From assembly GCA_027026255.1 (NCBI GenBank), contig JALVOT010000018.1, positions 124,001-188,000 on the forward strand: a stretch of 64,000 nucleotides of DNA, given 5' to 3'. The DNA is from Caldifarciminota bacterium. GTDB lineage: Bacteria; Hydrothermota; Tepidihabitantia; SM23-42. Position numbers and translations under genes: made by a program. The notes under the pieces were generated by a model, which did no database searches, was not told the origin of the DNA, and saw only the letters and a program-made list of their open reading frames with translations. Below are positions 4,045-24,394 of this stretch, piece after piece (the stretch's first letter is position 1; every line of letters starts with the position of its first letter).

Positions 4045-4185
4045 CGTCAATTAGCTCCATTTCCTAAAAATCCCCACTGTTGGGAATACAAGACTCAGTG
4101 TAGATTCTCCTATTTTGAAAATACCCATGAGACTTAAAGCCACGCCCTTTAAAGTGAAGGAGTTTATTATTATCATCACGGTTAT

Positions 4186-4420: not shown

Positions 4421-4944
4421 TACCTTTCCCACATTCCTGAAGCGTCTTTGACGCTTCCTTTAATTCCCTTATTCTTATTATGCAAAAAAATGCATAAATG
4501 TCAAGAATTTTCACTATCTCTTAATAAATTTGTTTGTAAAACGAAAAGGTATGTTTTCCATAACAACTATGTTGGTATCTGTATTGTGTCCAGCACAAGC
4601 GGCGGTAAGTGCATATTCAGTGTCATCTGGTGCACGCATTGTCTGAAATATGGCCAGGTATGCAGACGAAGACTGCTCCTGGCAAAAATGTCAAAGTATG
4701 ATTTCTTCATAGGTTTTTTAATACTATATCTTAAAAGGTAATGCACTTCAATTTCCAGGCCGGGCTTTTCAGCACCTTTTTTAGTACCTTGCAGGGTATA
4801 TATCTGTAATACCTCAATTTCTTGGGGGCCGCTTATTGTGTAACTTGCCTTGTCCTTAATTGAGAGACTGGCTGGAGGCCTGAAGTCTTTCATCAATATT
4901 GCCTTCAGAAATGTCATCTTGATGTCATCAAGGGTCAAACCTTT
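4421..4944. repeat. 524-bp direct repeat, copy A (secB body and 3' flank)
   Basis: This segment aligns without gaps (constant offset of 1803 bp) to 6224-6747 and is nearly identical. It covers all but the first ~16 codons of secB and about 145 bp downstream. The flank includes a perfect 8-bp hairpin (GAAGCGTC/GACGCTTC, 4439-4457). The end at 4944 falls inside secB, where copy B switches to radC-like sequence. Confidence 0.9.
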
Positions 4945-6223: not shown

Positions 6224-6747
6224 TACCTTTCCCACATTCCTGAAGCGTCTTTGACGCTTCCTTTAATTCCCTTATTCTTATTATGCAAAAAAATGCATAA
6301 ATGTCAAGAATTTTCACTATCTCTTAATAAATTTGTTTGTAAAACAAAAAGGTATGTTTTCCATAACAACTAGGTTGGTATCTGGATGGTATCTAACACA
6401 AGCGGCGGCAAGTGCATATTCAGTGTCATCTGGTGCACGCATTGTCTGAAATATGGCCAGGTATGCAGACGAAGACTGCTCCTGGCAAAAATGTCAAAGT
6501 ATGATTTCTTCATAGGTTTTTTAATAGTATATCTTAAAAGGTAATGCACTTCAATTTCCAGGCCGGGCTTTTCAGCACCTTTTTTAGTACCTTGCAGGGT
6601 ATACATCTGTAATACCTCAATTTCCTGGGGACCGCTTATTGTGTAACTTACCTTGTCCTTAATTGAGAGACTGGCTGGAGGCCTGAAGTCTTTCATCAAT
6701 GTTGCCTTCAGAAATGTCATCTTGATGTCATCAAGGGTCAAACCTTT
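6224..6747. repeat. 524-bp direct repeat, copy B
   Basis: Gap-free, near-identical copy of 4421-4944 in the same orientation, including the 8-bp hairpin at 6242-6260. Its upstream end breaks inside secB and continues as radC-like sequence, so it looks like the remnant of a tandem duplication that later lost its middle. Confidence 0.9.
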
Positions 6748-9462: not shown

Positions 9463-10071
9463 TCAGTATCCCCAGACTTCGTTGAGGTAAACGCTCCTTC
9501 TGCAGGTCGGGCACAGAAATTTCAGATGCTCGCTCCGATAGGGCGGTATATCCGAAGCCTTGGGAATCGCCTCCTCACCGTACTCCTGGGAAAGAACAAG
9601 AAAGAGATTGGGATTTGCATAGGCAAGTTCACCGGCCCGCCGGGCAATCCACAAAAGATGCGCCCGGGTCGTTATTACTGTACCACACCGCTCACAGAAG
9701 ACCAGTTCCTTCTCAACCACCTCTTCATAACCTTCTTCCTTGGTAATCTGGGCAAGGTCATATTCCTGACTGTGATGGATACCCTCTTTTGTCGTGCAGT
9801 ATGTTACACACTGACCACAATAAATACATTTGTGGGGATAATAAATCTCGCGCCGGATTCCTTTAACCAGATCATCCTCCTGTGCCCGGGCACTTGCCGG
9901 ACAGACCTCAACACAGGCACCACAAAGCACACATTTATCCGGGTCGAATTCAACCTTTCCCCGATAGGTCGGTGCCGCCGGCGAAGGTTTAAAGGGAAAT
10001 TTTGATGTATATGGTCCAAAAACTATTGCCCGTATCGCCTCACCAAGTTCTCGAAGTTTTGGTTTGCGCAT
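9463..10071 (-). CDS. NuoI/MbhN-like ferredoxin subunit of the hydrogenase complex
   Basis: This 202-residue iron-sulfur protein has two ferredoxin motifs, CVLCGACVEVCPAS and CIYCGQCVTYCTT. The second carries Thr instead of Pro after its last Cys. A C-terminal pair of CxxC motifs (CERCGT and CPTCRR) could bind zinc or iron. It corresponds to the NuoI/HycF/MbhN subunit, which carries electrons toward the hydrogenase small subunit. It is the last gene of the 19-gene operon, 1 nt after mrpG; the extra CxxC domain is typical of hydrogenase forms, not of complex I. Confidence 0.88.
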   Translation of the reverse strand: MRKPKLRELGEAIRAIVFGPYTSKFPFKPSPAAPTYRGKVEFDPDKCVLCGACVEVCPASARAQEDDLVKGIRREIYYPHKCIYCGQCVTYCTTKEGIHHSQEYDLAQITKEEGYEEVVEKELVFCERCGTVITTRAHLLWIARRAGELAYANPNLFLVLSQEYGEEAIPKASDIPPYRSEHLKFLCPTCRRSVYLNEVWGY

Positions 10072-10072
10072 A

Positions 10073-10426
10073 TCAATCCTCCTTTGCTATCTGTTCACCA
10101 TCCAGCTTATCTTTACCGTAGGCATCCATAACCGATCCCTTCCACATCTTTGTTCCAAAGTGGAGCGAACCCTTCATCAGGGCATGTGCCGCAACCGGCG
10201 AGGTAAGCAGCAAGAATGCCCCACAGATGAGTGCCTTTATACCCATCGGACTGAATCCCTTCAAAAGAAAGATTCCAATCATAATTCCAAATGTTCCAAG
10301 GGTAACACACTTTGTTGCCGCTTGTAAACGATTATAGACATCAGGAAACCGCACCAGACCTATAGCACCGAGGATATCAAAAAATACACCAACCCAGATT
10401 ATGAACCAGCCGATCGGACTAATCAT
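10073..10426 (-). CDS. mrpG: MrpG/MnhG-like antiporter subunit
   Basis: This 117-residue membrane protein has three predicted helices and the family segment GLVRFPDVYNRLQAATK. It is the smallest-helix set of the Mrp Na+/H+ antiporter and corresponds to MbhC of archaeal membrane-bound hydrogenase. It overlaps mrpF by 8 nt. Within the complex it should help form the sodium-translocation unit coupled to hydrogen chemistry. Confidence 0.9.
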   Translation of the reverse strand: MISPIGWFIIWVGVFFDILGAIGLVRFPDVYNRLQAATKCVTLGTFGIMIGIFLLKGFSPMGIKALICGAFLLLTSPVAAHALMKGSLHFGTKMWKGSVMDAYGKDKLDGEQIAKED

Positions 10427-10673
10427 CGAGGCTCCTTTTCTCTAAATACTTGGCCAGAGCCAAGGTACCTATAAAACTGAATAGCGCAAGGGTAATCGAC
10501 AAATCCATCAGATAGGACAGGTTGTAAAAAAGCGCTGCTAAGGCGGTTATTCCGACAAAAAGGATTCCCATAATATCAACACCTACGGCACGGTCCGAAA
10601 TTGTAGGACCCTGGTATATTCTATAAAGGCATAAAAATCCACCAACGGCAAGGATGCTAACTAAAACACTCAT
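10419..10673 (-). CDS. mrpF: MrpF/MnhF-like antiporter subunit
   Basis: This 84-residue three-helix membrane protein has the MrpF hallmark YRIYQGPTISDRAVGVD. It corresponds to MbhB of archaeal membrane-bound hydrogenase. It overlaps both mrpE (4 nt) and mrpG (8 nt), consistent with a tightly coupled operon and stoichiometric assembly. Confidence 0.92.
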   Translation of the reverse strand: MSVLVSILAVGGFLCLYRIYQGPTISDRAVGVDIMGILFVGITALAALFYNLSYLMDLSITLALFSFIGTLALAKYLEKRSLDD

Positions 10674-11155
10674 TCGAATATCCTCCTCAAATATTTTTCA
10701 AAACGTCGGGCAATAATATTTGATGCCTCATCAATCTTCGGCGATTCAATCCAGATCCAGTGGATATAAAGGTATTGACCATCAATTTCACAGGTCATCG
10801 TTCCCGGCGTAAGAGTAATCGAATTTGCCAGAAAGACCTTTGCCACATCGGTCTTCAAATCGGTTTTAATCTTTACAATACCCGGCCTTATCGGTCTTTC
10901 CGGATGCAGGACTCGATACGCAACATCAATATTCGCCTTTATTATATACCAGATGAATACCGGAATATAGATGATAAACCAGAAGATACGATGGAGTTGT
11001 AAAAACTTTATGGGACGGGTCGTAAAATAGCCGCCAAAGATAATTGTGGTCAAAAGGGCGACTACTATTCCGGCAATAAGATGGTCCAGATGGACACTCA
11101 ATGTAAGAAGCAGCCAGAGACAAAAGGCAAAAACAAAGTAGAGAAGATATCTCAT
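10670..11155 (-). CDS. mrpE: MrpE/MnhE-like antiporter subunit
   Basis: This 161-residue protein begins with two hydrophobic helices, followed by the MrpE C-terminal region (SITLTPGTMTCEIDGQYLYIHWI), which is the most conserved part of the family. It corresponds to MbhA. It overlaps mrpF by 4 nt and lies 9 nt after mrpD. It is an accessory membrane subunit of the sodium-translocating module. Confidence 0.92.
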   Translation of the reverse strand: MRYLLYFVFAFCLWLLLTLSVHLDHLIAGIVVALLTTIIFGGYFTTRPIKFLQLHRIFWFIIYIPVFIWYIIKANIDVAYRVLHPERPIRPGIVKIKTDLKTDVAKVFLANSITLTPGTMTCEIDGQYLYIHWIWIESPKIDEASNIIARRFEKYLRRIFE

Positions 11156-11164
11156 ATTACCCCC

Positions 11165-12670
11165 TTAGAAATTCAGCGCAAAAGAACCAAACACAAGCTG
11201 GGCATATTCAAAACCCCTGAGTAATGCATGCGCAGCCGGACCAACAATAAAATTCATCAGCGTCTGGAAACCCAAACCGGTCAAAAGCATAACTATCACA
11301 AGAAAGACCATCGCAATCCGCATCGTAAACGGCGCCTTTTTAAGGCCGGCCATCTTCCCCTTTTTCATAAATACATTATTCTCAATCTTAAGCAGATACG
11401 CAAGGGTAAGAACACTCAAGCCGATAGCGATGATTGCCAGCCACAGCAACCCCGCCTTGATTGCACCAAGCACAATAAACAGTTTGGCAAAGAAACCGAC
11501 CAAAGGTGGAAGACCAATCAAAGAGAGGGCGCCGAATCTAAAACTCCAGGCTGTAGTCGACATCGACTCACCCAATCCCGCAAGTTTATCAAGTTCTCGA
11601 GTACCCGCCCTGTGCACCACCGCACCCGAGGTCAAAAACAGCAGTCCCTTCCCTAAGGCATGGGCAAGAATATAAAATACAGCACCGGCAACCCCGTAAT
11701 AATTGCCGATTCCAAATCCAATCATAATATAACCAATCTGGGAAACTGTAGAATAACCCAGGAGTCTTTTATAATCCTTCTGCTTGAGTGCAGTGAGTCC
11801 TGCCCAGGCGATTGACAACAATCCGAGTCCGATTAGTAAATTAAAGAAGGTCGGGGCGTTTGCCCGGGTCAGACCGAAGATATTATAAACAATGCGCGCC
11901 GTGGTATAAATACCCAGGACCTTGATAAATATTCCGGAAAGCAGACTTGAAACCGGTGCCGGGGCAGCAGGATGGGCATCAGGAAGCCAGGTATGAAACG
12001 GCACAAGTGCCGCCTTAATGGAAAAGGCAAATAGTAACATACCCAGAATCATCCAGAAGAAGGAATTCATTCCATTCCCCTGAATTGTATTAGAGATATC
12101 CGCAAGATTCAGGGTCGAGGTCCGGGCATATAATAGGGCGATTGCCAGCAAAAATGTCAAACCGCCGATCTCTCCCATCACCATATACTTAAAAGACGCC
12201 TCAAGTTCCTCCGCATCAACACCAAAGGCAACAAGACAATAGGAAGAGATCGCCGCAATCTCCAGGAAAACAAACATATTGAAGAGGTCACCGGTGATTG
12301 CAATACCCATCATTCCGGCAGTAATCAGCATATAGAGTGTATAAAACTTCCACTGTCCAGTGTAGTGGGCGATATAGCGCAGCGAAAAGAAACAACCGGT
12401 AAAGACGATTATTGAAATAACCAGCACCATCAATGCGCTGAAAGAATCAAATGCCATCACAATACCCAATGGTGGAGGCCAGTTTCCCATCTTGTAGACA
12501 ATCATCGAAGTTTCCTGGGTAAGGGTAACCCCATAAAGGGCAAGGATAAAGAGTGCAAAAGAGACAATGGTCGTAACAATCCAGACCAAGGATTTAGATA
12601 TCTTACCCAGAAGCGGAATGATAAATGCAGTTATTAAAGGAATGGTAAAGTATAAAGGAATAATTGACAC
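11165..12670 (-). CDS. mrpD: MrpD/NuoM-like proton/sodium-conducting subunit
   Basis: This 501-residue polytopic antiporter-like subunit has about 14 transmembrane helices. The core LVPFHTWLPDAHPAAPAPVS contains the conserved Lys and His of the proton path, and GYSTVSQIGYIMIG is the usual helix-12 region. It corresponds to MrpD and MbhH. It is one of three NuoL/M/N-type subunits in this operon, together with those at 14000 and 15897. Confidence 0.93.
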   Translation of the reverse strand: MSIIPLYFTIPLITAFIIPLLGKISKSLVWIVTTIVSFALFILALYGVTLTQETSMIVYKMGNWPPPLGIVMAFDSFSALMVLVISIIVFTGCFFSLRYIAHYTGQWKFYTLYMLITAGMMGIAITGDLFNMFVFLEIAAISSYCLVAFGVDAEELEASFKYMVMGEIGGLTFLLAIALLYARTSTLNLADISNTIQGNGMNSFFWMILGMLLFAFSIKAALVPFHTWLPDAHPAAPAPVSSLLSGIFIKVLGIYTTARIVYNIFGLTRANAPTFFNLLIGLGLLSIAWAGLTALKQKDYKRLLGYSTVSQIGYIMIGFGIGNYYGVAGAVFYILAHALGKGLLFLTSGAVVHRAGTRELDKLAGLGESMSTTAWSFRFGALSLIGLPPLVGFFAKLFIVLGAIKAGLLWLAIIAIGLSVLTLAYLLKIENNVFMKKGKMAGLKKAPFTMRIAMVFLVIVMLLTGLGFQTLMNFIVGPAAHALLRGFEYAQLVFGSFALNF

Positions 12671-12679
12671 CCTAACCTC

Positions 12680-13018
12680 CTATCCTTTTAACCTTTTGAT
12701 CTTTGAAATATCAAATGTCTTATACCGTTCGTAAATGCGCAGGGCAATCGCCAGCATAACCGCAGTCGTTCCCAGGGCAATAACAATTGCGGTAAGGACC
12801 AGTGCCTGGGGGATAGGATCGACAAAGTTATGCGTGGTATGGACCTTTGTGATAATCGGGGCAAGCGCACCACGCCGAAATCCAATCAGGGCAAAAAGAA
12901 GATTCACCGAATACTCAATCAGAGCAAAACCGATCACAATCTTTATCAAATTACGCTTGGTTACTATCGCATAAAGCCCGATAAGAAATAATGCTATGCA
13001 GAAAACGAAGATTGTCAT
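12680..13018 (-). CDS. mrpC: MrpC/NuoK-like antiporter subunit
   Basis: This 112-residue protein has three transmembrane helices and the MrpC/NuoK core (GFALIEYSVNLLFALIGFRRG, with a buried Glu), ending with DPIPQALVLTAIVI. It corresponds to MbhG. It starts exactly where mrpB ends (1-nt overlap) and precedes mrpD by 9 nt. It supplies the NuoK-like part of the ion path. Confidence 0.93.
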   Translation of the reverse strand: MTIFVFCIALFLIGLYAIVTKRNLIKIVIGFALIEYSVNLLFALIGFRRGALAPIITKVHTTHNFVDPIPQALVLTAIVIALGTTAVMLAIALRIYERYKTFDISKIKRLKG

Positions 13019-13452
13019 TAATCCTCCATTATATATTTAAATGCAGCCAGGGCAAGGAATATTGAAAAAAGCCCGGCACCAACCTTGATTCCAATCGCAA
13101 TATTACAGAGGGGAATTATCCCGGCGCTCAAAAGATGTAAGGGGGTTCCCCGGGGAATAAAATTCAGGAAGAAAACGCCGGTCAGTAAAAGACCGAGCAG
13201 GGCAATACCCACAAAAAGCAGGGCGCCCACGCTTTCAAAAACCGAAGAGATGATGCTTGATTTTTTTTCACCCGCCTTAGAACTTCCGTATGCCAGATAC
13301 TTAAGAACAAAAACACCGGCAATGATTACACCCCCGGCGAATCCGCCCCCCGGGGTAAGATGTCCATGAAGAATAATATATAGACCGTAGAGGAATATAA
13401 ATCCGATTACAATATTGGTAATGGTCTTAACGATTAAACTCATCCCCTTCAT
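13018..13452 (-). CDS. mrpB: MrpB/MnhB-like antiporter subunit
   Basis: This 144-residue protein has four transmembrane helices and the MnhB signature LYIILHGHLTPGGGFAGGVI. It corresponds to MbhF. It overlaps the MbhDE-like gene by 4 nt. The PGGGFAGG loop is a strong family marker. Confidence 0.93.
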   Translation of the reverse strand: MKGMSLIVKTITNIVIGFIFLYGLYIILHGHLTPGGGFAGGVIIAGVFVLKYLAYGSSKAGEKKSSIISSVFESVGALLFVGIALLGLLLTGVFFLNFIPRGTPLHLLSAGIIPLCNIAIGIKVGAGLFSIFLALAAFKYIMED

Positions 13453-13985
13453 TTCTGCCTCCTGCCGATTTTACGCATCAAAGCCACAACCCCGATCACG
13501 GAAGTGAAAAGCACGGTCGCCTCACCAAGGGTATCAAGGGCTCGAAAATCAAGGATTACATCAGCAACCAGGTTCGCACCTCCGGTCCGTGGAAGTCCAA
13601 GACTGATATATTGATTTGCAACCTTCATTATCGGATGACCAAACGGCGGCAGATTATTCAATGTTCTGACCATCGCAATGAAGAACAGGACTGCAAAAGC
13701 TCCATACAATACTACTGCCAGAACCTGTATTCCGGAAATCTTTTCTTTTATGGTTTCATCAATATGGGTTGTCCGCAGGATAACTGCAACAAATATAACA
13801 ATCGTCAGCACCTCAACAACAATCTGGACAATCGCCAGATCCGGAGCCTGAACCAGAATAAATATAATGGCAACAGAAAATCCAACCGCACCAAGGGAGA
13901 TGACTGCAGCCAGTAGGTCCTTAATCTCGGTTGCGATGATCCCCGCGACAAGCATAAATATTAGAAATAGATAAAGTTCAAGCAT
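13449..13985 (-). CDS. MbhD-MbhE fusion (DUF4040 plus MrpA C-terminal-like)
   Basis: This 178-residue membrane protein combines two pieces that are separate MbhD and MbhE proteins in archaeal hydrogenases and the C-terminus of MrpA in Mrp antiporters. Residues ~1-100 are DUF4040-like (QAPDLAIVQIVVEVLTIVIF). Residues ~115-178 carry the MbhE-like motif DFRALDTLGEATVLF. It lies 14 nt after the NuoL-like gene and overlaps mrpB by 4 nt. Together with the neighbouring NuoL-like subunit it reconstitutes a split MrpA. Confidence 0.82.
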   Translation of the reverse strand: MLELYLFLIFMLVAGIIATEIKDLLAAVISLGAVGFSVAIIFILVQAPDLAIVQIVVEVLTIVIFVAVILRTTHIDETIKEKISGIQVLAVVLYGAFAVLFFIAMVRTLNNLPPFGHPIMKVANQYISLGLPRTGGANLVADVILDFRALDTLGEATVLFTSVIGVVALMRKIGRRQK

Positions 13986-13999: not shown

Positions 14000-15895
14000 T
14001 TAAAAGACCAAAATCAAAAGAATAATAATCCCACCCAAAAAGATCCAGCCCACATAGTTGTATAGTTCTCCGTTGTGAAGTAGTGATATAAATCCACCCA
14101 GGCCCGAGATTATCCTGCCGATGCCTTTATAGATTCCAACCAGAATACGGTTAATCACATCCTTGAAGATAATCGCCAGTCCGCTTGCGATGCCCACAAG
14201 ATAATTAAAGAAATCGAATGCTCCACCTTCACCAAACTGATAGGTTTTTTCTAAAAGGTCAAGGTTATGAAGCGATGAATAGAAATTTGGGCCGGTGATA
14301 CTGATCTCTTCAGGCTCGAGCACTTCACCACCGATAAATATCTGTTTTCTTTTCGGCTTCAACGCCGTGCCAAACATAAACACAATCAATCCCAGAATGA
14401 TGCCGACAAGAATCAATATCGTTGCCAGAATCGGCGACCAGAAACCGATACCATTCACCCGGAAAGGAATTGAAGGAAAGATAAGGTTGCTGAGCGGGAT
14501 ACGGTATGCAAAAATACCGAAAACAATACACAGCAGTGCGAGCAACAACGACGGAACAACCATCTCAAATCTTGCCTCCCTGACCTTATCCAGCGCCCTG
14601 GGACGTTCACCCAAAAATAGTGAATGAACCAGTTTCAAGAATGACGCCAGGGTCAAAACACTTCCGAATGTCGCAGCAATCAGAAAAATTGGCCATAAAT
14701 TCGACTCTTTACCAAACTTTATAATACCCTGATAAACCATCCATTTAGAAAAAAATCCATTCAACGGTGGAACACCGGAAATCGCCAATGACGCAATGAA
14801 AAATGCAAATAAGGTAATAGGCATCCTGGTCCCAAGTCCTCCAAGTTGATCCAGCTTTGTAGTCTTTGTTCGATACTCCACAGAACCAGCGGATAAAAAG
14901 AGACACGCCTTATATATTGCATTGTTCAGCATATGGAAAAGTCCGCCCGCTATACCAACCGGGATGCCGGTTCCGATCCCCAACACCATATATCCAACCT
15001 GTGAAACAGCATGGAATGAAAGTAAGCGCATTGTTTCTTTCTGGACCAAAGCCATACCCACTGCTGCAATGATGGTCACCGCACCAATTATCATCAGCAA
15101 AAGACGAATAGGTAATGAACCGCTGATGTCAAAAACAAAATAAGATATTCTTGTAAGCAAATATATACCGAGTAGTTTATCAAGACTCGCCGGAATATAT
15201 GCCATAGTCGATGCAGGCACAACCTTGGAAGATTCAGGAATCCAGCTGTGTAAAGGCATAGACCCCGCCTTGGCGATAGCCCCAACCATTATTAAAATAT
15301 AGGAAGCTATAAACCAGGAACTGGTGAGTTGAATGCGCGGGGATAAAGGCATATTAGCATTACCTGCCTTTACAAATAACATCACAATACCCAACATCAT
15401 AATAAAATCAGACACCCCGATAATTATTACAGCCTTGCGTGCAGCAAATGAACTGTCCTTTTTACCGACCAGTAATAGCCCATAAAGTGAAAATACAAGC
15501 AGGTTCCAGAAAATCAACAAGAAAATCAGATTACCGCTTAAGACAATACCATTGGCTGCAGATAAAGCCAGGGCGATATAGATATAATAGAACCTCTCCC
15601 GGGGATTTTTGGAAACCGCCTTTAATGAGTACAGCCATATCAAAAACGCAAAGACGGCGTTGAATAAAATAATCAAACCGGTCAGAGAATCAACATAGAA
15701 TCGAAAATCGATGCCGGCGAATGAAATCAAACTGAAAGAAATTATCTGGGTCCGGGATGCAATAAAGAAGCGCACGGCAAAGAACAGAGTGAGGAAAAAT
15801 CCCAGGAAGTTGAGTTCGCTGCGCAGGCGATTAATCAAAAGTCCCAGAAGACCACCAACAAGGGGCAGTAAAATCAAATAATAAATTTCATTCAT
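14000..15895 (-). CDS. NuoL/MrpA-type ion-conducting membrane subunit
   Basis: This 631-residue polytopic protein has about 16 helices. It carries the antiporter core with KAGSMPLHSWIPESSKVVPAS (conserved Lys and His in the proton path) and SFHAVSQVGYMVLGIG. The C-terminal ~150 residues have extra helices beyond the common 14-helix unit. It resembles NuoL/HyfB-type subunits and, with the DUF4040 protein that follows, replaces MrpA. It starts 1 nt after the stop of the upstream subunit. Confidence 0.9.
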   Translation of the reverse strand: MNEIYYLILLPLVGGLLGLLINRLRSELNFLGFFLTLFFAVRFFIASRTQIISFSLISFAGIDFRFYVDSLTGLIILFNAVFAFLIWLYSLKAVSKNPRERFYYIYIALALSAANGIVLSGNLIFLLIFWNLLVFSLYGLLLVGKKDSSFAARKAVIIIGVSDFIMMLGIVMLFVKAGNANMPLSPRIQLTSSWFIASYILIMVGAIAKAGSMPLHSWIPESSKVVPASTMAYIPASLDKLLGIYLLTRISYFVFDISGSLPIRLLLMIIGAVTIIAAVGMALVQKETMRLLSFHAVSQVGYMVLGIGTGIPVGIAGGLFHMLNNAIYKACLFLSAGSVEYRTKTTKLDQLGGLGTRMPITLFAFFIASLAISGVPPLNGFFSKWMVYQGIIKFGKESNLWPIFLIAATFGSVLTLASFLKLVHSLFLGERPRALDKVREARFEMVVPSLLLALLCIVFGIFAYRIPLSNLIFPSIPFRVNGIGFWSPILATILILVGIILGLIVFMFGTALKPKRKQIFIGGEVLEPEEISITGPNFYSSLHNLDLLEKTYQFGEGGAFDFFNYLVGIASGLAIIFKDVINRILVGIYKGIGRIISGLGGFISLLHNGELYNYVGWIFLGGIIILLILVF

Positions 15896-15896
15896 A

Positions 15897-17105
15897 CTAC
15901 ATTCCTCCTGCCAACAAAAAGCTCATCGGTTTGTAAAAGAAGATACCACAAAGCAAAGACACCAGGGCAAGAATAAATACCACAGTAATGCCGGTATAGC
16001 TCGGTCTCTTAAACTTAATCTTCTTTGATTCACACTTATCACCGAAAAACAGTTCATGATAGAAACGGGTGCTGTATAACAGGGTAAAGACAGCGGCAAT
16101 AATCGCCCCGGCACCGAATACCGCCGAATGCTCAACCGCCCCGATAATCACATTCAGTTTCGAGAAGAAACCAATCATCGGGAAGAATCCAACAATTGAA
16201 CCGACGAGAAACGCCATCGCCACCGCCAGGGTCGGAGAGGCCCTTAATAGACAGGAGATATTTTTCAAATTATCACTGCCGGTTGAATCCTCGACAATGC
16301 CCACACCATAAAACAACCCTGATTTTGCAAGGGCATGGGCAAGAATATAAAGCATACCGCCAACAACCCCGAAGGTTCCACCCACTGCAAAGGCAAGCAG
16401 GATAAAACCGATCTGACTGATTGTTGAAAATGCCAGCAAGTTTCTCAAATTATCAGAACGGAGTGCTATACCACCAGCAATGATACTCGAGGCGATTGCA
16501 ATCCAGGCAACGGTATTGAAAAAAGACGCCGAGAAAAAGGTGCCGGTTACAAAAAGTCTCATAAAGACAATCACACCAAGGTTTTCACCAATCCCGGCAA
16601 GACAACCACCAATTGCTGAAGGCACGGTTCGGTATGCCGGAGCAAGCCAGATATGTAAAGGAACCGTAACCGATTTCGTAAGAATTCCTATAAGAACAAA
16701 AATCGCTGCGGTGTTGTTGATGACCCGAATCTGGAAGATATTAAAAGTTCCATTATCAAGATATATCATCAGCAAACCGAGCAGCATAATTGTCGCCGCC
16801 CCGAAATTGAGTATAAATGATAGATCACCGGCAGAAAGGTCCTGGTCTGCACGATAATATGCAACCGCACGCCAGATCGCAAAAGTCGATATCTCCCAGA
16901 ATATGAACATCAATAATAGGTTATAAGTAAGGGCGATACCTATACCCGAACCGACCAGAAGCAAGAGCATCAGATAATATTCCAAACGATGCCCCTTCTC
17001 CCGCATTGTTGCCAGGCCGTAGATAAATGACATCAGACCGATAAAACCGAATAGTATCGTAAGAAAAATTCCAAATTTATCAACAAAAAAATCAAATCCA
17101 ATCAT
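15897..17105 (-). CDS. NuoN/HyfF-like membrane subunit
   Basis: This 402-residue polytopic subunit is shorter than a complete NuoM/N but keeps the antiporter core (KSVTVPLHIWLAPAYRTVPSA and AFSTISQIGFILLAFAVGG). It overlaps the hydrogenase large-subunit gene by 4 nt. It is the third antiporter-like subunit in the operon. Which of the three contacts the catalytic module cannot be decided from sequence. Confidence 0.88.
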   Translation of the reverse strand: MIGFDFFVDKFGIFLTILFGFIGLMSFIYGLATMREKGHRLEYYLMLLLLVGSGIGIALTYNLLLMFIFWEISTFAIWRAVAYYRADQDLSAGDLSFILNFGAATIMLLGLLMIYLDNGTFNIFQIRVINNTAAIFVLIGILTKSVTVPLHIWLAPAYRTVPSAIGGCLAGIGENLGVIVFMRLFVTGTFFSASFFNTVAWIAIASSIIAGGIALRSDNLRNLLAFSTISQIGFILLAFAVGGTFGVVGGMLYILAHALAKSGLFYGVGIVEDSTGSDNLKNISCLLRASPTLAVAMAFLVGSIVGFFPMIGFFSKLNVIIGAVEHSAVFGAGAIIAAVFTLLYSTRFYHELFFGDKCESKKIKFKRPSYTGITVVFILALVSLLCGIFFYKPMSFLLAGGM

Positions 17106-18280
17106 TTTCTATACCTCTCCCTTAATCTCTCTGTCTTTTTCCATGATAGCTGCAATAAGTCCTTGCCTGTATATTTCTCTTTTCCATCCTCATAGGCAAC
17201 CATTGTCCGTTCAGTGCAACAGTAACAGGGGTCTACGGCAGCCAGAACCAGGGTTGCATCAGCAATTGAATATCCCTTTACTGCAACCACATTCGAGGCG
17301 ATATTCATAAAACTCGGCGCCCTGACCTTATGTCGGACCGGCATATTTGAACCATCAGAACGGACATAATGGAAAACCTCACCACGCGGTGCTTCATGAT
17401 GACCGATTCCTTCACCCGGTGGTATACCATCCACCCTGGTCTCAATCGGTCCATCCGGCATATTTTTAAGACACTGGCGCACAATCTTTATCGATTCATC
17501 ACACTCAAGCAGTCTCACAACCGCCTTGGCCAGAACATCCCCATCTTTGCCAACCACAATATCCCAATCCACCTTATCATAGGCATCATAAGGGTCATCC
17601 TTACGCACATCAATCGCATATCCCGAGCCTCGGGCTGTAGGTCCGGTAACTGCATAGGCAATCGCATCCTCTTTCTTTAATATACCGACACCCTCAAGCC
17701 TCGCCCTGATAACCGGGTCATCAAGGATTGCCTTGGTAAACATCGCATTCTTTTTCTCAAGCATATCCAGGTACTTCTCGATTTTGGGATAATCTTCCGG
17801 TTTGATATCCCGACGCGCCCCGCCGATCTTATTTATTGCATAATGATTGCGATTACCCATTATCAACTCGAAAAGATCAAGCAACGGCTCACGATAACGC
17901 CAGACCCACATCCAGACTGTATTATATCCGATGAAATGGCCTGCCAGGCCGAGCCAGAGATAATGGGAATGTATACGTTCTAATTCACCAATGATCGTCC
18001 TGATATACTTTGCCCTGGGTGGTGGTTCAATATGTGCACAATCCTCTACCGCCAGCACATACGCATAAGGATGGGAGTCAGAACAGATTCCGCAGATTCG
18101 TTCCACAAGGAATGGCACCTGATCCCAGGTCAAAGTCGGAGAGATATATTCGTGACCGCGATGGTTATATCCGATATTAATCTCCAAATCTACCACCTTC
18201 TCCCCTTCAACAATCAATTTAAAGAATTCAGGCTCCTCCTGCAGAGGATGATATGGACCGATTGGAACAACCCTTCTCAA
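17102..18280 (-). CDS. Group 4 [NiFe] hydrogenase large subunit (NuoD/MbhL-like)
   Basis: This 392-residue catalytic subunit has both Cys pairs that hold the Ni-Fe site: RICGICSDSH (Cys63, Cys66) and DPCYCCTER (Cys352, Cys355). NuoD of complex I lacks them, so this is a true hydrogenase. After the second motif 34 residues remain (TMVAYEDGK... onward), resembling the C-terminal peptide removed during maturation of HycE. A matching protease gene opens the operon. It overlaps its neighbours by 4 nt on both sides. It should reduce protons or oxidise H2 on the cytoplasmic side. Confidence 0.95.
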   Translation of the reverse strand: MRRVVPIGPYHPLQEEPEFFKLIVEGEKVVDLEINIGYNHRGHEYISPTLTWDQVPFLVERICGICSDSHPYAYVLAVEDCAHIEPPPRAKYIRTIIGELERIHSHYLWLGLAGHFIGYNTVWMWVWRYREPLLDLFELIMGNRNHYAINKIGGARRDIKPEDYPKIEKYLDMLEKKNAMFTKAILDDPVIRARLEGVGILKKEDAIAYAVTGPTARGSGYAIDVRKDDPYDAYDKVDWDIVVGKDGDVLAKAVVRLLECDESIKIVRQCLKNMPDGPIETRVDGIPPGEGIGHHEAPRGEVFHYVRSDGSNMPVRHKVRAPSFMNIASNVVAVKGYSIADATLVLAAVDPCYCCTERTMVAYEDGKEKYTGKDLLQLSWKKTERLRERYRK

Positions 18281-18762
18281 TGCTCCTCCTTTAATCCTTC
18301 AATCTTAATCTTTTTATGTTCATTCATATAATCACGGCGAAGCGGACAGAGCCCCTGGGGCCAGGTTTCTGCAGTCAACAGCGGTTTTAAATTGGGATGG
18401 CCAATAAAATCGACGCCCAAAAGTTCCTGGATCTCACGTTCAATCCAGTCTGCTGCAGGGAGAAAATCTGTCAGACTCCTTATCTTTGGATCATCCTTGG
18501 GTACCACAGTCTTGATATTATAATAGGTTCCTGAAGGGTCATGGCTGAAATGGTAAATAATCTCAATACCCTCTCTTGTGTCAATTCCGGTCGCAATTGA
18601 AAGACGCAGTCCTTTTTCGAACAGGAACTTTGCAAATTCATAAACCCCTTCGCGCGAAATTCTGATATAGGTGCGCCTTGGAGAATGAATCTTAATCAGA
18701 ACTTCCGGAAATTTTTTGCTGATTTCTTCTAAAAATTTCTTCGAATATTCTTTCTTCATCAT
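18277..18762 (-). CDS. NuoC/MbhK-like hydrogenase subunit
   Basis: This 161-residue protein of the complex I 30-kDa family has the conserved WIEREIQELLGVDFIGHPNL segment and the ending PLRRDYMNEH. It is a separate polypeptide, whereas in HycE it is fused to the large subunit. It lies between the small- and large-subunit genes, each overlapping by 4 nt. It is a structural subunit of the peripheral arm without its own cofactor. Confidence 0.92.
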   Translation of the reverse strand: MMKKEYSKKFLEEISKKFPEVLIKIHSPRRTYIRISREGVYEFAKFLFEKGLRLSIATGIDTREGIEIIYHFSHDPSGTYYNIKTVVPKDDPKIRSLTDFLPAADWIEREIQELLGVDFIGHPNLKPLLTAETWPQGLCPLRRDYMNEHKKIKIEGLKEEH

Positions 18763-19175
18763 AACCTCTTCAATGCCTTAACAACACCCATAATAATAGC
18801 CTCAGGTTTGGGTGGACATCCCGGGATATAGACATCAACCGGAATATGTTTATCATATGGACCAACCACATTATATGAAGATTCAAAGATATGGGGATGG
18901 CAGGCACAACTTCCAACTGCAATCACCAGACAGGGTTTCGGTGTCTGTTCATAAACCCTTAATACCCTGGGTAGAGTCTTACGATTAATCACCCCGGTTA
19001 CCAGCAGGGCATCAGCGTGGCGGGGTGAACCGACAAGAACAATACCGAATCGTTCAACATCCCAGCGCGGGGTGAGAATATCCAGTATCTCAATATCACA
19101 ATTATTGCAGGCTGCTGCAGCAAGATGAAATACCCAGGGTGACTTCTTAAGACCAAGTAATTTAAGATTTCCCAT
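18759..19175 (-). CDS. Hydrogenase small subunit (NuoB/MbhJ-like)
   Basis: This 138-residue protein binds the proximal [4Fe-4S] cluster. Cys23 and Cys26 (ACNNCDIE), Cys90/Cys92 (VGSCACH) and Cys120 (IPGCPPKPE) provide the ligands. It hands electrons to the Ni-Fe site in the large subunit. It follows the NuoH-like gene by 11 nt and overlaps the NuoC-like gene by 4 nt. The short length, without the extra ferredoxin domains of group 1-3 small subunits, is typical of group 4 enzymes. Confidence 0.94.
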   Translation of the reverse strand: MGNLKLLGLKKSPWVFHLAAAACNNCDIEILDILTPRWDVERFGIVLVGSPRHADALLVTGVINRKTLPRVLRVYEQTPKPCLVIAVGSCACHPHIFESSYNVVGPYDKHIPVDVYIPGCPPKPEAIIMGVVKALKRL

Positions 19176-19186: not shown

Positions 19187-20107
19187 TTATAAACCATAAA
19201 AGGCAAAAATCAAACCAATTATAGAAAAGATGCCGAGTCCCAGCCAGAAGAATTTCAAAGATTGATCAATCCTTAATCGCGGATTCGTATTTTTAACTAA
19301 AACAATAAGCACAACAAGCACCAAAAATTTCAAGACCGCCCACCAATCGGCGAATCCTCCCCAGAGCACCGAGATAAAAAAGAGGGGTAAAAGGAAAAAC
19401 ATCATCGCCCGGGTAAGTTTGTAAACGGCAAGGGCAACCCCGGAATATTCAATATAAGGACCTGCCATAATCTCCTGTTCGGCCTCCGGGATATCAAACG
19501 GCACAAAGCTCAATTTCGCCTGCATAGTGAAGAAGATCACCACACCGGCGATAATTCCTGAAATAGAATAGAGGAAAGAACCGGATGTATGCTGGGCAAT
19601 TATGATATCACCGAACTTGATATGCCCTCCTGCCTTCAGGATGATAATCGCCAGAGAAATCAGAAACGGCAGTTCATAGGCAAAATACTGGGTCATCTCA
19701 CGCGAGGCGCCGACACTGGCCAAGGGATTTCGCGAGGCTGAACCACCCAGAATAACCCCAATCGGTGGTAATGCCAGAAGGTAGATAATCACAATCAAAT
19801 CACCGACAAATGATGTATGGGGATTAAAATTCATTGAGAATAACATTACCGCAAGAATCGACATTCCAATAAGTCCCAGAATCGGACCAAGGAGAAATAT
19901 TATCTTTGAACTACCTTCGGGAATTATCGTCTCTTTCAATAACAGTTTCAAAAAATCTGCATAGGGCTGATACCAGGGTGGGCCAACCCGCCAGTGGACC
20001 CGTGCTGTAACCTTGCGATCGATCCAGGTTACAAAAAGTCCCACGACTGCGGTAAATAGAAATCCGGGAAATATAATATAAGAGAATAAAGTTTTTATTA
20101 TATTCAT
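19187..20107 (-). CDS. NuoH/MbhM-like membrane anchor
   Basis: This 306-residue protein has about eight helices and the NuoH signature regions: WIDRKVTARVHWRVGPPWYQ near the N-terminus and VPFDIPEAEQEIMAGPYIEYSG in the middle, with acidic residues of the quinone/coupling loop. In membrane-bound hydrogenases this subunit joins the hydrogenase to the ion-pumping membrane arm. It overlaps the ferredoxin gene before it by 4 nt. Confidence 0.94.
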   Translation of the reverse strand: MNIIKTLFSYIIFPGFLFTAVVGLFVTWIDRKVTARVHWRVGPPWYQPYADFLKLLLKETIIPEGSSKIIFLLGPILGLIGMSILAVMLFSMNFNPHTSFVGDLIVIIYLLALPPIGVILGGSASRNPLASVGASREMTQYFAYELPFLISLAIIILKAGGHIKFGDIIIAQHTSGSFLYSISGIIAGVVIFFTMQAKLSFVPFDIPEAEQEIMAGPYIEYSGVALAVYKLTRAMMFFLLPLFFISVLWGGFADWWAVLKFLVLVVLIVLVKNTNPRLRIDQSLKFFWLGLGIFSIIGLIFAFYGL

Positions 20108-20574
20108 TGTCTTCTCCTGAAGAATGGATTCCTGGAAACAAATCTGACACCAACTTCGTGTTTTTCAATCTTTTTATCGGTCAGAAGCTGTAAAGCACCC
20201 GAAGAACAGGCGGATACACATCTTGGTCCTTCAGCACGGTCAGAACAGAGACTGCACTTCTGGGAGATATGGCGCACCAATGGAGCATCAATCACACCGA
20301 AAGGACAGGCAAATGCACAACTCTTACATCCGATACAGAGAAATGATGACCTTATAACCAGACCGGTTTTCTCATCCCGGATTATTGCTGCAACCGGACA
20401 TGCCGTCATACAAAGTGCCTCTTTACAATGACGACAGGCAAGGGGCAGATATGCAATGCCCTGAAGTTCACCGTGCCTTATTCGTGCCTCACCCTTAAAT
20501 GCTGCCTTACAAGCCGCCTCACAACTGCGGCACCCACAACAAAGATCCAGATCAAGGACTATTCTTTTTTCCAT
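20104..20574 (-). CDS. HycB/CooF-like four-cluster ferredoxin
   Basis: This 156-residue protein has four Cys clusters in the order CCGCRSCEAAC, CRHCKEALCMTACP, CIGCKSCAFACP and CSLCSDRAEG...CVSAC, the pattern of HycB, CooF and DMSO-reductase electron-transfer subunits. It overlaps the molybdopterin-fold gene by 16 nt and the NuoH-like gene by 4 nt. It probably wires the soluble oxidoreductase module (20559-23937) to the hydrogenase. Confidence 0.9.
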   Translation of the reverse strand: MEKRIVLDLDLCCGCRSCEAACKAAFKGEARIRHGELQGIAYLPLACRHCKEALCMTACPVAAIIRDEKTGLVIRSSFLCIGCKSCAFACPFGVIDAPLVRHISQKCSLCSDRAEGPRCVSACSSGALQLLTDKKIEKHEVGVRFVSRNPFFRRRQ

Positions 20575-22133
20575 ATTTTCACCTCGGTAGGTTCAAAATT
20601 TACCAGTTCCTGATGAATCTCAAAATCAAAGAGTTCCCTTACATCCGGGGTCTCAGCAGGAATAGAAACAACCCCACAGGGCACATCAATACTCAGTTTT
20701 ACCACCACCTCGGCAAGACCATTTTTGGACTGCACATAAACCCTGTCTCCGGTGCGGACCTTCAGTTCCTCACCATCCACCGGATTAATCTTCAACTGCG
20801 GTGTCTCAAAAAATCCCATAAAGTTAAAGGCAATCTTCTCACCCAGCAGGAGATAACCTCTGGTCTTTTTGGTGCTTTTTTCCACTACCGCGCCAATCCG
20901 CTCTTTAAGGTCAATCTTCAATTCCGGCTCATTTATACCTGAAACCTTCTTGGTTACTCCACCCATCATATCGAGCAATGCCTTCACATCCATTGTTCCA
21001 CTCGCCGGTTTTATCTCACCACTCAATTTTGCCGGGCCAAAGGTAGTAATAATCGTCCCTTCTTTTTCCAAATTCAATACCGCAGGCAGACCATCTATGC
21101 CATCAAACTTCAGGGTTGATGTCGCACAGACATTCAATCCCTTCACCCCCTTCAGGACCTGGGGATAATAATAAGGAAATAATTCACCAAAATTTATAAG
21201 ATATTTAATCTTTCTCTTTTTTATTAAGTTGTAGACCGCACCAAAATGTTCATTTCCAGGAAACCCGATAAACTCAAAAAGCGGCATTACCGGCTTGCCG
21301 CTGAATTTGCTGAAACGAATCAATGCCTCAGTAAAAAGAACCGGATCATAGGTATGGCCGAATGCCAAACTTACGATAATAAGGCCGTTTTCTGCAGATT
21401 TGAAACTCTGACTGACCTCATCAATAATGCTCGATTCAATCCCGGTGGTCCCGGCAAGGTCAATATCACCCGATTTCTCCCGGGCAAGGCCAAGCAATAA
21501 AAGGGGCTCGGTTCCGGCACGAACCTTTAAGAAATCAGTGGCGAATCCTGCGGTATGGGTATTTATTGAATCAATCACCACCAGACGGTTTTTCCGATCC
21601 GATAATTTCCAGTTAATCAGTGTCTTTGAAATCATCGGGGCCTGATTAAATGGGTCACCCAGAACAACAATTTGCTGTGCCCTGTCGATCTGGTCCAGAC
21701 CCACCGGCTTTCTGCGTTTGATAAATACCTTGAAAAATCTTTCCGGTTCAAAATAGGTGGATGCGATATGGCTAATTCCGGCACCTTTACAAAAACCCAA
21801 AATCGCCTGATGCTCCTCTTCTGTAATATTACGGTCAAAACAAACCGCCACCTTATCAGGTTTAGCCAGAATATCCTTTAGTTCCTGTTTAATCCTTACC
21901 CAATCTACAGCCCGACCGCTTTTGACTGGAACCGTAAGGCGTCGGGGGTGGTTCAGGAAAACTCCGGCTGCACTACCCCGGGGACATAATCTTCCCCCGG
22001 TATTGCCATCACTTAAATATTCAACACCCTTTACACCAAAATCATCAAATACCACACCAAATTCACAGCCGAAACTGCAGAATGGACAGATGGTTTTTAT
22101 TACCGACTTTGTCTCGGGATCAATAATTTTCAT
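20559..22133 (-). CDS. Molybdopterin-oxidoreductase-fold protein (NuoG/formate-dehydrogenase-like), probably without FDH activity
   Basis: This 524-residue protein has an N-terminal [4Fe-4S] motif (CPFCSFGCEFG and GRLCPRGSA) and a C-terminal molybdopterin-dinucleotide-binding barrel (MNPV-like INPVDGEELKVRTGDRVYV to the end). It is ~150-250 residues shorter than typical formate dehydrogenases. At the expected catalytic position after the Fe-S domain (around ISHIASTYFEPE) there is no Cys, and no in-frame TGA for Sec. It is more like the degenerate domain of NuoG or like FwdB-type proteins. Its substrate, if any, is unknown. Confidence 0.8.
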   Translation of the reverse strand: MKIIDPETKSVIKTICPFCSFGCEFGVVFDDFGVKGVEYLSDGNTGGRLCPRGSAAGVFLNHPRRLTVPVKSGRAVDWVRIKQELKDILAKPDKVAVCFDRNITEEEHQAILGFCKGAGISHIASTYFEPERFFKVFIKRRKPVGLDQIDRAQQIVVLGDPFNQAPMISKTLINWKLSDRKNRLVVIDSINTHTAGFATDFLKVRAGTEPLLLLGLAREKSGDIDLAGTTGIESSIIDEVSQSFKSAENGLIIVSLAFGHTYDPVLFTEALIRFSKFSGKPVMPLFEFIGFPGNEHFGAVYNLIKKRKIKYLINFGELFPYYYPQVLKGVKGLNVCATSTLKFDGIDGLPAVLNLEKEGTIITTFGPAKLSGEIKPASGTMDVKALLDMMGGVTKKVSGINEPELKIDLKERIGAVVEKSTKKTRGYLLLGEKIAFNFMGFFETPQLKINPVDGEELKVRTGDRVYVQSKNGLAEVVVKLSIDVPCGVVSIPAETPDVRELFDFEIHQELVNFEPTEVKIWKKE

Positions 22134-22945
22134 ATGAACGGCTCCTCAATATCCTTGATGTCTTTCCAGGTAAGGACTGGTCCATCCTTACACACATAAA
22201 ATTTCCCTACCCGACAGTGATTGCACTTGCCAATACCACAGGACATATTTTTCTCCATCGACAGATAGATATGTTCATCCTTAAAACCCGCCTCAACCAG
22301 CCTCTGGGTTACAAACTTCATCATCAGTGGAGGACCGCAAACAATTGTCGGCGCTGAATTCACATTAACCGGAATCTCATCGAGGATAACCGTAATCACA
22401 CCAACCTTCCCTTTCCAGGAATCATCTCCCCTGTCAACCGTAAGAAGAATATCCACCTTATCGATCTTCTGCCACTCAGGAATCAATTTCTTGTAGACAA
22501 TATCCTGGGGAGTTCGGGCGCCATACCTGATATAGATTTTTTTGTAATGCTTGATATTATGAACCAGGGCGAGAAAAAGAGAACGCAGCGGAGCAAATCC
22601 CACACCTCCACCAACAATAAAAATCTCCTTTTTCTTAAATGCATCAAGTGGATATGGTTTACCAAATGGTCCCCGTACCCCTATACTATCACCGGGTTTG
22701 AGTTCAAAAAGTGCACTGGTAACCCGACCCACCTTCATAATCGTAAACTCCAGATCTTCGGCATAAGGAGAGGAAGAAGGAGTAAATGGCGCCTCACCAA
22801 CGCCGGGAACGGTCAGTTCTGCAAACTGTCCGGCGGAAAAATCGATCGGCCTTCCATCCAGCACAAATGTCGTAATACTGGGGGTTTCCGGGATAATCTC
22901 TTTTATTTTTGTGGGGATAGGATAATAAGGGTTTATAACTGCCAT
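22130..22945 (-). CDS. Sulfhydrogenase gamma-like FAD/NAD(P)-binding subunit
   Basis: This 271-residue protein has a ferredoxin-reductase FAD domain, an NAD(P)-binding domain (IFIVGGGVGFAPLRSL), and a C-terminal [2Fe-2S] site (MSCGIGKCNHCRVGKFYVC). This is the layout of HydG of Pyrococcus sulfhydrogenase and of PyrK. It overlaps the molybdopterin-fold gene by 4 nt and the beta-like subunit gene by 13 nt. It should exchange electrons between NAD(P)H and the Fe-S chain. NADH versus NADPH preference cannot be told from sequence. Confidence 0.92.
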   Translation of the reverse strand: MAVINPYYPIPTKIKEIIPETPSITTFVLDGRPIDFSAGQFAELTVPGVGEAPFTPSSSPYAEDLEFTIMKVGRVTSALFELKPGDSIGVRGPFGKPYPLDAFKKKEIFIVGGGVGFAPLRSLFLALVHNIKHYKKIYIRYGARTPQDIVYKKLIPEWQKIDKVDILLTVDRGDDSWKGKVGVITVILDEIPVNVNSAPTIVCGPPLMMKFVTQRLVEAGFKDEHIYLSMEKNMSCGIGKCNHCRVGKFYVCKDGPVLTWKDIKDIEEPFI

Positions 22946-23937
22946 AAAATCTCCCTGATATCAATCTTTGCCATACAACCTGAGTTGCAACGTCCACACC
23001 CGGTGCAGGCATAAATCTCTTCATACTGGTAAAAATAGGTGAATTTGCACAAAAATCGATTCCAGAAACGTTCGTCAAATTTCGGCCGGGGATTCATTCC
23101 ACCACCAACCCGGGCATAGCCTGAATAATAGCATCCATCCCAGACCCTGACCCTTTCAATATTCTTGCCCTTTTTATAATCCGCCAATAAAAAACAGTAG
23201 CAGGTTGGACAGGAAAAAAGACAGCTCAAACACTCAACACACTCATCCCGGGCCTGACGCACCTTTTCTTCATCCACCTGTTCAACTGCCTGAGCCAGAC
23301 CGGCCCTGAACTGCTTTTCGTTTATCGCACGCAACTTCTGAACGGCTGAACGCCGTATCATTTGCCGCTCCTTTTCATCACCCTTATCAGGTTCAGTAAA
23401 AAGGTCCTGGAACTGCTTAATAATCTCCTCGCCCTTTTTAGTAAAGGTTTCAAAGAGAAGTCCTGATTCAATTTCAGTGAAGTTCAAATCAGCTGTGGCT
23501 TCGGCATAGGGATTGATACCCACTAAATTACAAAAACAGGTATCAGCCGGTTCAGGGCAATCTGCTGATATAATAATCGTATTTTCACGGCGTGCCTTGT
23601 ATAAAGGATCAATCGGTTCCCATTTTAAGAAAATCCGGTCATAAACATCCACCCCGCGCAGGTCACAACTTTTAACCCCGAAAAGCACCTGGTGCGGAGC
23701 AGAAATCTTCTCATCATCGGGATATCTGGCAACTGTTGAACGACTTGGTAAAAAGAAATGCTTTATATTTTCCGCAGTTCTTATCCCTTTAAATTCCGGA
23801 AGAAAATCCTTATCCGGGTCAAAACGGACAAGATGGGTATTACCATCTCTTAATTGAGAATAGTAAACCGGACCTTTCCGGGATAAACCCTGGATAAAAT
23901 CTAATATTTTATTGGATGGCAGTAGATAAAATTTCAT
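22933..23937 (-). CDS. Sulfhydrogenase beta-like 4Fe-4S dicluster subunit
   Basis: This 334-residue protein has an N-terminal domain with the conserved GVKSCDLRGVDVYD and CxC-containing (DTCFCNLVG) segments. Two ferredoxin motifs follow near the C-terminus: CVECLSCLFSCPTCYC and CTGCGRCNSGC. It matches HydB of sulfhydrogenase and AsrA of anaerobic sulfite reductase. It pairs with the FAD subunit downstream and passes electrons toward the ferredoxins. It overlaps the protease gene before it by 29 nt. Confidence 0.9.
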   Translation of the reverse strand: MKFYLLPSNKILDFIQGLSRKGPVYYSQLRDGNTHLVRFDPDKDFLPEFKGIRTAENIKHFFLPSRSTVARYPDDEKISAPHQVLFGVKSCDLRGVDVYDRIFLKWEPIDPLYKARRENTIIISADCPEPADTCFCNLVGINPYAEATADLNFTEIESGLLFETFTKKGEEIIKQFQDLFTEPDKGDEKERQMIRRSAVQKLRAINEKQFRAGLAQAVEQVDEEKVRQARDECVECLSCLFSCPTCYCFLLADYKKGKNIERVRVWDGCYYSGYARVGGGMNPRPKFDERFWNRFLCKFTYFYQYEEIYACTGCGRCNSGCMAKIDIREILWQL

Positions 23938-24394
23938 AGATACCCATTATATCTAAATTATTTCTTCCATCAATTAATTTCAATGCCTCGAGAATCTTGT
24001 GCGAGAGCTCTTTTGTCTTCGGAGTAAACTCAGTATAGCTCGACGGAGGAACCCCTAAAAATATTATATCCTTAATTCCACCTTCACGCAGAAATTGATA
24101 GACCGCACTAAATGGCAGAGTATGGGTCGAAACCGAAAGTACATTCGTCTTCATAATTTCTTCGTTCCTTAATATCATCGGCTCTTTTTTTTCATTACGG
24201 ACGGTGTCAAGGAAAATCACCAGGTCCGCACCTGAGGATACCATCTTATTCAAATAATTCTCAGGATAGAGTCCGCAATCTAACTTTTTAATCTTTTCTG
24301 TCTCTTCGATATTTTTTATTATGTATGGGCCAAATCCATCATCCCCCCTATCTAAATTTCCTAAGCCGCATAAAAGGACCCGCAAATTTTTCAC
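23909..24394 (-). CDS. hycI: Hydrogenase maturation protease (HycI family)
   Basis: This 161-residue peptidase family M52-like protein has GLGNLDRGDDGFGP (first Asp ligand), VIFLDTV (second Asp) and STHTLPFS (His ligand). Such proteases clip the C-terminal peptide of the large subunit after nickel insertion; the large subunit at 17102 keeps 34 residues after its last Cys motif. It starts with GTG at 24394, 12 nt after the -10 box, so the leader is only ~5 nt. It is the first gene of the operon; no hyp genes are in the window. Confidence 0.92.
   Translation of the reverse strand: MKNLRVLLCGLGNLDRGDDGFGPYIIKNIEETEKIKKLDCGLYPENYLNKMVSSGADLVIFLDTVRNEKKEPMILRNEEIMKTNVLSVSTHTLPFSAVYQFLREGGIKDIIFLGVPPSSYTEFTPKTKELSHKILEALKLIDGRNNLDIMGIYEILSTAIQ

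Follow-up and report, generated by a model that had tools for sequence, protein, structure and literature searches.

Very probable absence of formate oxidation by a formate dehydrogenase-like subunit encoded in a group 4 [NiFe] hydrogenase operon of candidate division WOR-3

The stretch of DNA analyzed here (64,000 nucleotides, positions 124001-188000 of contig C18, referred to as the window) comes from a genome of 2.1 Mb that is 99.13% complete (G000) and whose named relatives belong to candidate division WOR-3/Stahlbacteria. A run of genes on the minus strand of the window, from 24394 to 9463, includes as its fourth member an open reading frame (20559..22133) for a 524-amino-acid protein of the molybdopterin fold. 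This FdhA-like protein, which is very probably cofactor-less and which we call the MPT subunit, was characterized from its reading frame, Pfam matches, an alignment, and a structural model. Three genes precede it, encoding a HycI-type hydrogenase maturation protease (23909..24394), a HydB/ShyB-like iron-sulfur subunit (22933..23937), and a HydG/AsrB-like FAD/NAD(P)-binding subunit with a [2Fe-2S] motif (22130..22945), the last of which runs 4 nt into the MPT frame. The HydB-HydG pair is of the sulfhydrogenase beta/gamma type. On its other side, a gene for a HycB-like protein with four 4-Cys cluster motifs (20104..20574) overlaps the MPT gene by 16 nt. It is followed by genes for a NuoH/HycD-like membrane subunit (19187..20107), a NuoB/HycG-like small subunit (18759..19175), a NuoC-like subunit (18277..18762), and a NuoD-type [NiFe] hydrogenase large subunit with the motifs RICGIC and DPCYCCTER (17102..18280). 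The rest of the run encodes two antiporter-like subunits, one matching Proton_antipo_M (15897..17105) and one of the NuoL/MrpA type (14000..15895), followed by MbhD/MbhE-like (13449..13985), MnhB-like (13018..13452), and MnhC/NuoK-like (12680..13018) proteins, an MrpD-like antiporter subunit (11165..12670), and MnhE-like (10670..11155) and MnhG-like (10073..10426) proteins. It closes with a NuoI/HycF-like ferredoxin bearing a C-terminal CxxC ... CPxC quartet (9463..10071). All of these genes lie on the minus strand. Elsewhere in the window, a 300-nt direct repeat (4421-4720 and 6224-6523, 97% identical) flanks a HicB-like gene (5002-5553) and a fragment that resembles RadC by eye, and an 881-amino-acid protein with a ResIII domain is encoded at 1405-4050.

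Four Ni-ligand cysteines, the HycI protease, and Hyp maturation, with HypD present in the genome, mark the enzyme as a group 4 [NiFe] hydrogenase. The Ni-ligand motifs, or close variants of them, were present in all 37 large subunits read from relatives. HypD was not found in four related genomes that are 91 to 98% complete (G098, G099, and G100 of family f7 and G102 of f9), and the large subunits there keep all of the Ni-ligand cysteines. The gene order HydB-HydG-MPT-FeS-NuoH-B-C-D is conserved, and HydG lay in the same fetched stretch as the MPT gene in 37 of 40 loci. In the other three, HydG (67 to 71% identity) is found elsewhere in the genome. The operon is split at these loci (L049, L050, and L068 of G136, G138, and G137, respectively), with MPT-FeS-NuoB apart from HydB-HydG and NuoH not in the stretch. 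The NAD-type and [2Fe-2S] motifs of HydG were found in 70 of 70 proteins. Its FAD-type motif, searched with a rough pattern, was found in 65 of 70, and in four of the five failures the pattern had fallen on an over-long open frame. The HycB-like partner had as its best PDB match the HycB of formate hydrogenlyase (E = 8.7e-20).

The MPT frame is free of internal stops over 20559..22133, and the plus strand across the same interval is interrupted by them. With no stop inside the frame, an in-frame selenocysteine codon was ruled out. A degraded copy or pseudogene was also rejected, given an uninterrupted frame and a family that is conserved across 66 of the 147 genomes of the phylum (E ≤ 1e-20). 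Two Pfam domains scored above their curated cut-offs: PF04879 (Molybdop_Fe4S4) at residues 11 to 61 and PF01568 (Molydop_binding) at residues 445 to 497, the latter being the C-terminal barrel at 20643..20801. PF00384 matched neither the MPT subunit itself nor anything in the genome, and its absence from the genome therefore says little. The [4Fe-4S] motif, C16-x2-C19-x3-C23 ... C50-P-R52-G (21984..22088), has cysteine at C16, C19, C23, and C50 in 61, 61, 59, and 61 of 61 full-length homologs, respectively, and both exceptions carry Asp at the third position. Asp at this position was seen in three divergent members of family f30 (L047, L048, and L130), which branches in the trees as the sister group of all the rest. 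The remaining cysteines, at residues 98, 115, 336, and 486, are Cys in only 2, 27, 2, and 1 of the 61 homologs. Besides the cluster cysteines and glycines, R65 and E356 are invariant in the alignment, in 34/34 family members and 28/28 other rows. A salt-bridge pair has been described for NarG and is retained in NuoG (PMC5123574), and going by the alignment with the FdhF and NuoG rows, R65/E356 appear to be its counterpart. The first-pass annotation of this locus had described a short protein that keeps the [4Fe-4S] motif and the cofactor-binding barrel, and these data bear it out. The protein has 524 residues versus 715 for FdhF, with approximately 23, 72, and 67 residues absent between shared landmarks in the alignment.

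That annotation had also noted that the protein carries neither Cys nor Sec where formate dehydrogenases (FDHs) have their catalytic residue, had called for an alignment, and had held that the answer decides whether the complex uses formate. In an alignment of E. coli FdhF, NuoG, NapA, FDHs of the same phylum, and 34 MPT family members, the place of FdhF selenocysteine 140 is occupied by Ser125-Thr126 (21756..21761), without a Cys. Specifically, FdhF U140 corresponds to T126, H141 to Y127, K44 to R52, and R333 to F286. The U140 column is free of Cys in all 34 family members. RGQNNVQG, the FDH motif that holds the active-site Arg (R333 of FdhF), is likewise missing from all 34; FdhF and 10 FDH rows from this phylum have it. 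A Cys stands one column upstream of the U140 column in 9 of the 34, all of them from family f10 and none from the genome of the window. At the position of the f10 Cys, the MPT subunit has Ser125. Shifting a 5-residue gap by one residue would put the f10 Cys on the catalytic column, and f10 members may thus retain a vestige of the catalytic Cys. Profiles of known enzymes scored well under their cut-offs on the MPT subunit, at 67.1 bits versus 666.25 for TIGR01591 (FDH alpha) and 22.7 bits versus 327.8 for TIGR03129 (FwdB), and a FwdB-like protein was ruled out on the latter score.

Profile searches of the genome returned no match to MoaC, MoeA_N, the MoaA C-terminal domain, or FdhD, and none to pyruvate formate-lyase. 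Among the 66 genomes with the MPT gene, MoaC was found in one (a 35-residue fragment), MoeA_N in two (one under the cut-off), and MoaA and FdhD in none, and no genome held more than one of the four. Four genomes that carry the MPT gene at a strength weaker than 1e-20 (G125, G126, G127, and G129) also have no match to any of them. Among the 81 other genomes of the phylum, where absence of the MPT gene is judged at the 1e-20 cut, MoaC was found in 21, MoeA_N in 24, and MoaA in 21; because the genomes are related, a Fisher test on these counts does not yield a fair probability. As positive controls, the four profiles had matches in 11, 11, 11, and 8 of 14 known genomes. Because the catalytic Cys/Sec, the RGQNNVQG motif, and the pterin and FdhD genes are all absent, the MPT subunit very probably carries no Mo/W-pterin and does not oxidize formate. 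The question of formate use posed in the first-pass annotation can thus be answered with a very probable no.

Should the MPT subunit nevertheless be a working FDH or another Mo/W enzyme, the complex would be a formate hydrogenlyase. The best profile matches of the protein are indeed FDHs (F420-dependent FDH, E = 3.5e-48), its operon encodes the FHL-like partners HycB and HycF, and a survey from 2025 attributes FDH to WOR-3, with an F420-linked FDH in 33 genomes from one of the subgroups (PMC12542636). Against this, there is no catalytic Cys/Sec and no RGQNNVQG, the positions of K44, H141, and R333 are substituted, the pterin-synthesis and FdhD genes are missing, and the TIGR01591 score is 67 against a cut-off of 666. 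On the grounds of residues, motif, and missing genes we rejected an active FDH. The earlier suggestion of an enzyme for another substrate fails as well, since any Mo/W enzyme with this fold would depend on the pterin pathway that is absent here. We give very little credence to this reading as a whole.

An AlphaFold2 model of the MPT subunit, built from 33 sequences (pLDDT 93.6, pTM 0.92), predicts the FDH/NuoG fold. Searched with this model, solved structures gave three best VIA matches tied within about 1 Z: the FDH ForCE1 (Z 26.8, rmsd 3.7, 506 aligned), ElpA (Z 26.5, rmsd 2.7, 322 aligned), and Nqo3 of T. thermophilus (Z 26.2, rmsd 3.2, 443 aligned). By sequence profile, the nearest solved chains are FDHs (F420-FDH, 3.5e-48), followed by NuoG (1.3e-15) and HydA (1.1e-13). 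In a tree of the fold, the MPT family forms one clade (100/99) apart from the catalytic FDHs and from the NuoG-like rows. This tree, from which archaeal FDHs were absent and two rows (REF_L124_0 and REF_L101_1) were left out, does not fix the order among the MPT, FDH, and NuoG-like groups; an origin of the MPT family from FdhA apart from NuoG is our reading rather than a result. Viral contigs contained no relative of the MPT subunit, and neither did genome contigs searched with the MPT sequence (P0001) alone. With a second query (A2), the genome contigs yielded 29 loci, 28 of them titled WOR-3, Stahlbacteria, or TA06 and one "uncultured bacterium"; relatives in Saganbacteria, Omnitrophica, and Zixibacteria lie outside the reach of this search.

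What the MPT subunit has retained and what it has lost are the same as in NuoG. Like NuoG/Nqo3, it has a molybdopterin fold that would be without Moco, a [4Fe-4S] motif at the FS0/N7 place, the R/E pair, and a place in what would be an NADH-input module. In contrast to NuoG/Nqo3, it starts with Molybdop_Fe4S4 at residue 11 and has no N-terminal ferredoxin domains, its partners are HydB-HydG rather than NuoE-NuoF, and its profile match to NuoG is far weaker than that to FDH (1.3e-15 versus 3.5e-48). ElpA of the methanogen Elp-Hdr complex is likewise a cofactor-less FdhA relative in a working electron-input arm (PMC12350162). However, ElpA is cut to about 340 amino acids without a C-terminal domain, whereas the MPT subunit keeps PF01568. 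ElpA also partners with ElpB, ElpC, and HdrABC and has F420H2 as its donor, whereas the MPT operon has no Hdr or FdhB-like neighbor. A noncatalytic FdhF/NuoG-like domain in an electron-transfer complex is found again in StnC and in HydA (of Stn and NiFe-HydABCSL), and the FdhF domain of StnC is described as catalytically inactive (PMC10482914). Unlike the MPT subunit, these domains are fused to GltD or ferredoxin domains and belong to soluble bifurcating complexes. By analogy, NuoG, ElpA, and StnC are precedents for an MPT subunit that would be a pseudoenzyme. In related genomes, longer NuoG/HydA-like proteins (about 730 to 880 amino acids; L111-L115, L121, and L122) also have no Cys at the catalytic column, and a 1,091-amino-acid protein of family f37 (L148, 1231-4506) with GltD-like and NuoG/FdhF-like parts looks StnC-like by eye.

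The operon as a whole can be set beside E. coli formate hydrogenlyase (FHL). Both pair an FdhA-fold subunit with a HycB-type four-cluster protein, and both have a HycF-type ferredoxin bearing a CxxC..CPxC quartet and a group 4 [NiFe] hydrogenase. The MPT complex differs in having no Sec/Cys, no RGQNNVQG, and no pterin genes, and in its added HydB-HydG and Mrp/Mbh membrane arm. Thus, the four-cluster HycB-like protein and the HycF-like quartet of an FHL-type complex are both found here, but an active FDH is not. A closer counterpart is the group 4 hydrogenase locus of Saganbacteria RX5A, for which a 2019 paper lists a hydrogenase, Mrp, an unclassified molybdopterin oxidoreductase, cooF, asrA, and asrB (PMC6349859). 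Set side by side by description rather than by sequence, this locus very likely has the same gene set as the MPT operon. The cluster type is therefore already in print with the MPT counterpart unclassified, and the account of the locus in that paper does not comment on its catalytic residue. Our search of the literature found no demonstration that the FDH-like subunit of such a locus lacks the catalytic residue or the cofactor, or that it was lost together with two clusters. For group 4 NiFe hydrogenases in Stahlbacteria, it found no paper.

Related operons that lack the MPT subunit offer a comparison. In one related clade (f33 in part, f35, f36, and f37), the HycB-like gene comes immediately after HydB-HydG and leaves no space for an MPT gene: in five such loci, the two genes are separated by gaps of 136 and 311 nt or overlap by 13, 13, and 55 nt. 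In the NuoD tree described below, G143 and G145 are labeled as being without the gene though their contigs do not reach across the HydG-FeS junction; in G144 this junction is split over two contigs. In five of six operons without the MPT subunit, the first and fourth 4-Cys motifs (I and IV) are both absent from the HycB-like partner; two-motif proteins are found in L134, L135, L136, and L140 (f37, f33, and f35). The exception is L141 (G141, f36), where the MPT gene is absent and all four partner motifs are kept. By comparison, all four motifs were present in 62 of 62 readable partners from operons with the MPT subunit. Three of the 64 such partners had failed the motif script: one has four motifs by eye (L010, with ACSFG for ACPFG), one was masked (L014), and one meets a contig end (L143). 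The C-terminal quartet of the HycF-type protein does not covary with the MPT subunit and is present with and without it.

In the NuoD tree, the loci without the MPT subunit fall into a single clade (100/100), placed between f30 and the rest, both of which have the gene. The HydG tree likewise groups them in a single clade (95/96), in which G141 branches first. Eight duplicate loci were removed for the NuoD tree, and its root rests on long-branched outgroups. Given one clade in both trees, the joint loss of the MPT subunit and the clusters counts as a single event. On these trees, the simplest reading is that an ancestral MPT subunit was lost once and that the partner clusters were lost later, although a copy too diverged for the 1e-20 cut may lie elsewhere in the genomes of this clade. 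Motifs I and IV are, we assume, the cluster pair of the HycB-like protein that faces the catalytic subunit. Joint loss fits a place for the MPT subunit on the electron path, such that its removal made the adjacent clusters useless.

We consider it probable that the MPT subunit is a pseudoenzyme, stripped of catalytic Cys/Sec, cofactor loops, and cofactor but still with its [4Fe-4S] cluster, and that it serves as a relay between HydB-HydG and the HycB-like protein and [NiFe] site. The absent catalytic residue and cofactor pathway, the FDH/NuoG fold of the model, and the partner cluster loss support the first-pass suggestion of a structural or electron-relay subunit like NuoG. The MPT subunit would take the place that FdhF has in FHL, docked on the four-cluster HycB-like protein, and its motif predicts a bound [4Fe-4S] cluster. 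In FHL, electrons pass from FdhF (A1) to HycB (B1-B4) and on to HycF and HycG and the [NiFe] site (PMC9474812). Here, they would enter from the sulfhydrogenase-type HydG (FAD, NAD(P)H) through HydB and not from formate, with NAD(P)H rather than another compound as the putative donor. The predicted order is NAD(P)H, HydG, HydB, the MPT [4Fe-4S] cluster, the HycB-like clusters, NuoB, and [NiFe]. The reaction would be reversible, could run in this direction, and may be coupled through the Mbh/Mrp membrane arm to ion pumping.

A kept cluster alone is no proof of a relay, because cluster N7 of NuoG, the equivalent of the MPT cluster, lies off the electron path (PMC9474812). The MPT subunit could instead be a pure scaffold that holds HydBG to the hydrogenase, its cluster off the path like N7, which is at the same place, and electrons jumping from HydB directly to the HycB-like protein. 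N7 is important for stability (PMC5123574). Moreover, HydB, HydG, and the hydrogenase are all retained in operons without the MPT subunit, and coupling thus does not depend on it. Yet two of the four partner clusters vanish with it in five of six operons, as would be expected of clusters on a path through it. Across 61 homologs, the four cluster cysteines are also nearly invariant, and the protein has no N-terminal ferredoxin domains able to carry a NuoG-type bypass. On balance, we think a pure scaffold unlikely. Less likely still is that the MPT subunit is a docking site and second entry for reduced ferredoxin in a confurcating enzyme that uses ferredoxin and NAD(P)H together. Mbh hydrogenases are ferredoxin driven (PMC6349859), and StnC, with its inactive FdhF-like domain, works in an electron-bifurcating enzyme (PMC10482914). 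However, we saw neither another flavin subunit nor a bifurcating module of the HydBC type in the MPT operon, nor any sequence mark of a ferredoxin site.

A broader scenario can be put forward tentatively, as one that we hold possible while leaning slightly against it. Through the emptying of its FDH and the docking of HydBG, an FHL may have become a hydrogenase that is linked to NAD(P)H and moves ions. A NuoG-like relay would in this way have arisen a second time, alongside the descent from an ancestor of the FHL type that has been proposed for complex I. A side branch would then have shed the relay and two partner clusters, shortening the wire.

The WOR-3 hydrogenase is thus very probably not formate using, though the nearest solved relatives of its MPT subunit are FDHs. 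This bears on the subunit left unclassified in the Saganbacteria locus (PMC6349859) and, if the annotations there rest on the MPT gene, on the formate oxidation published for WOR-3 (PMC12542636). Complexes with the MPT subunit and their sister complexes without it make a natural pair for asking what role NuoG-like relics play. The same pair serves for asking how an FHL-type complex becomes NAD(P)H driven, a question that has been raised for complex I (PMC9474812).
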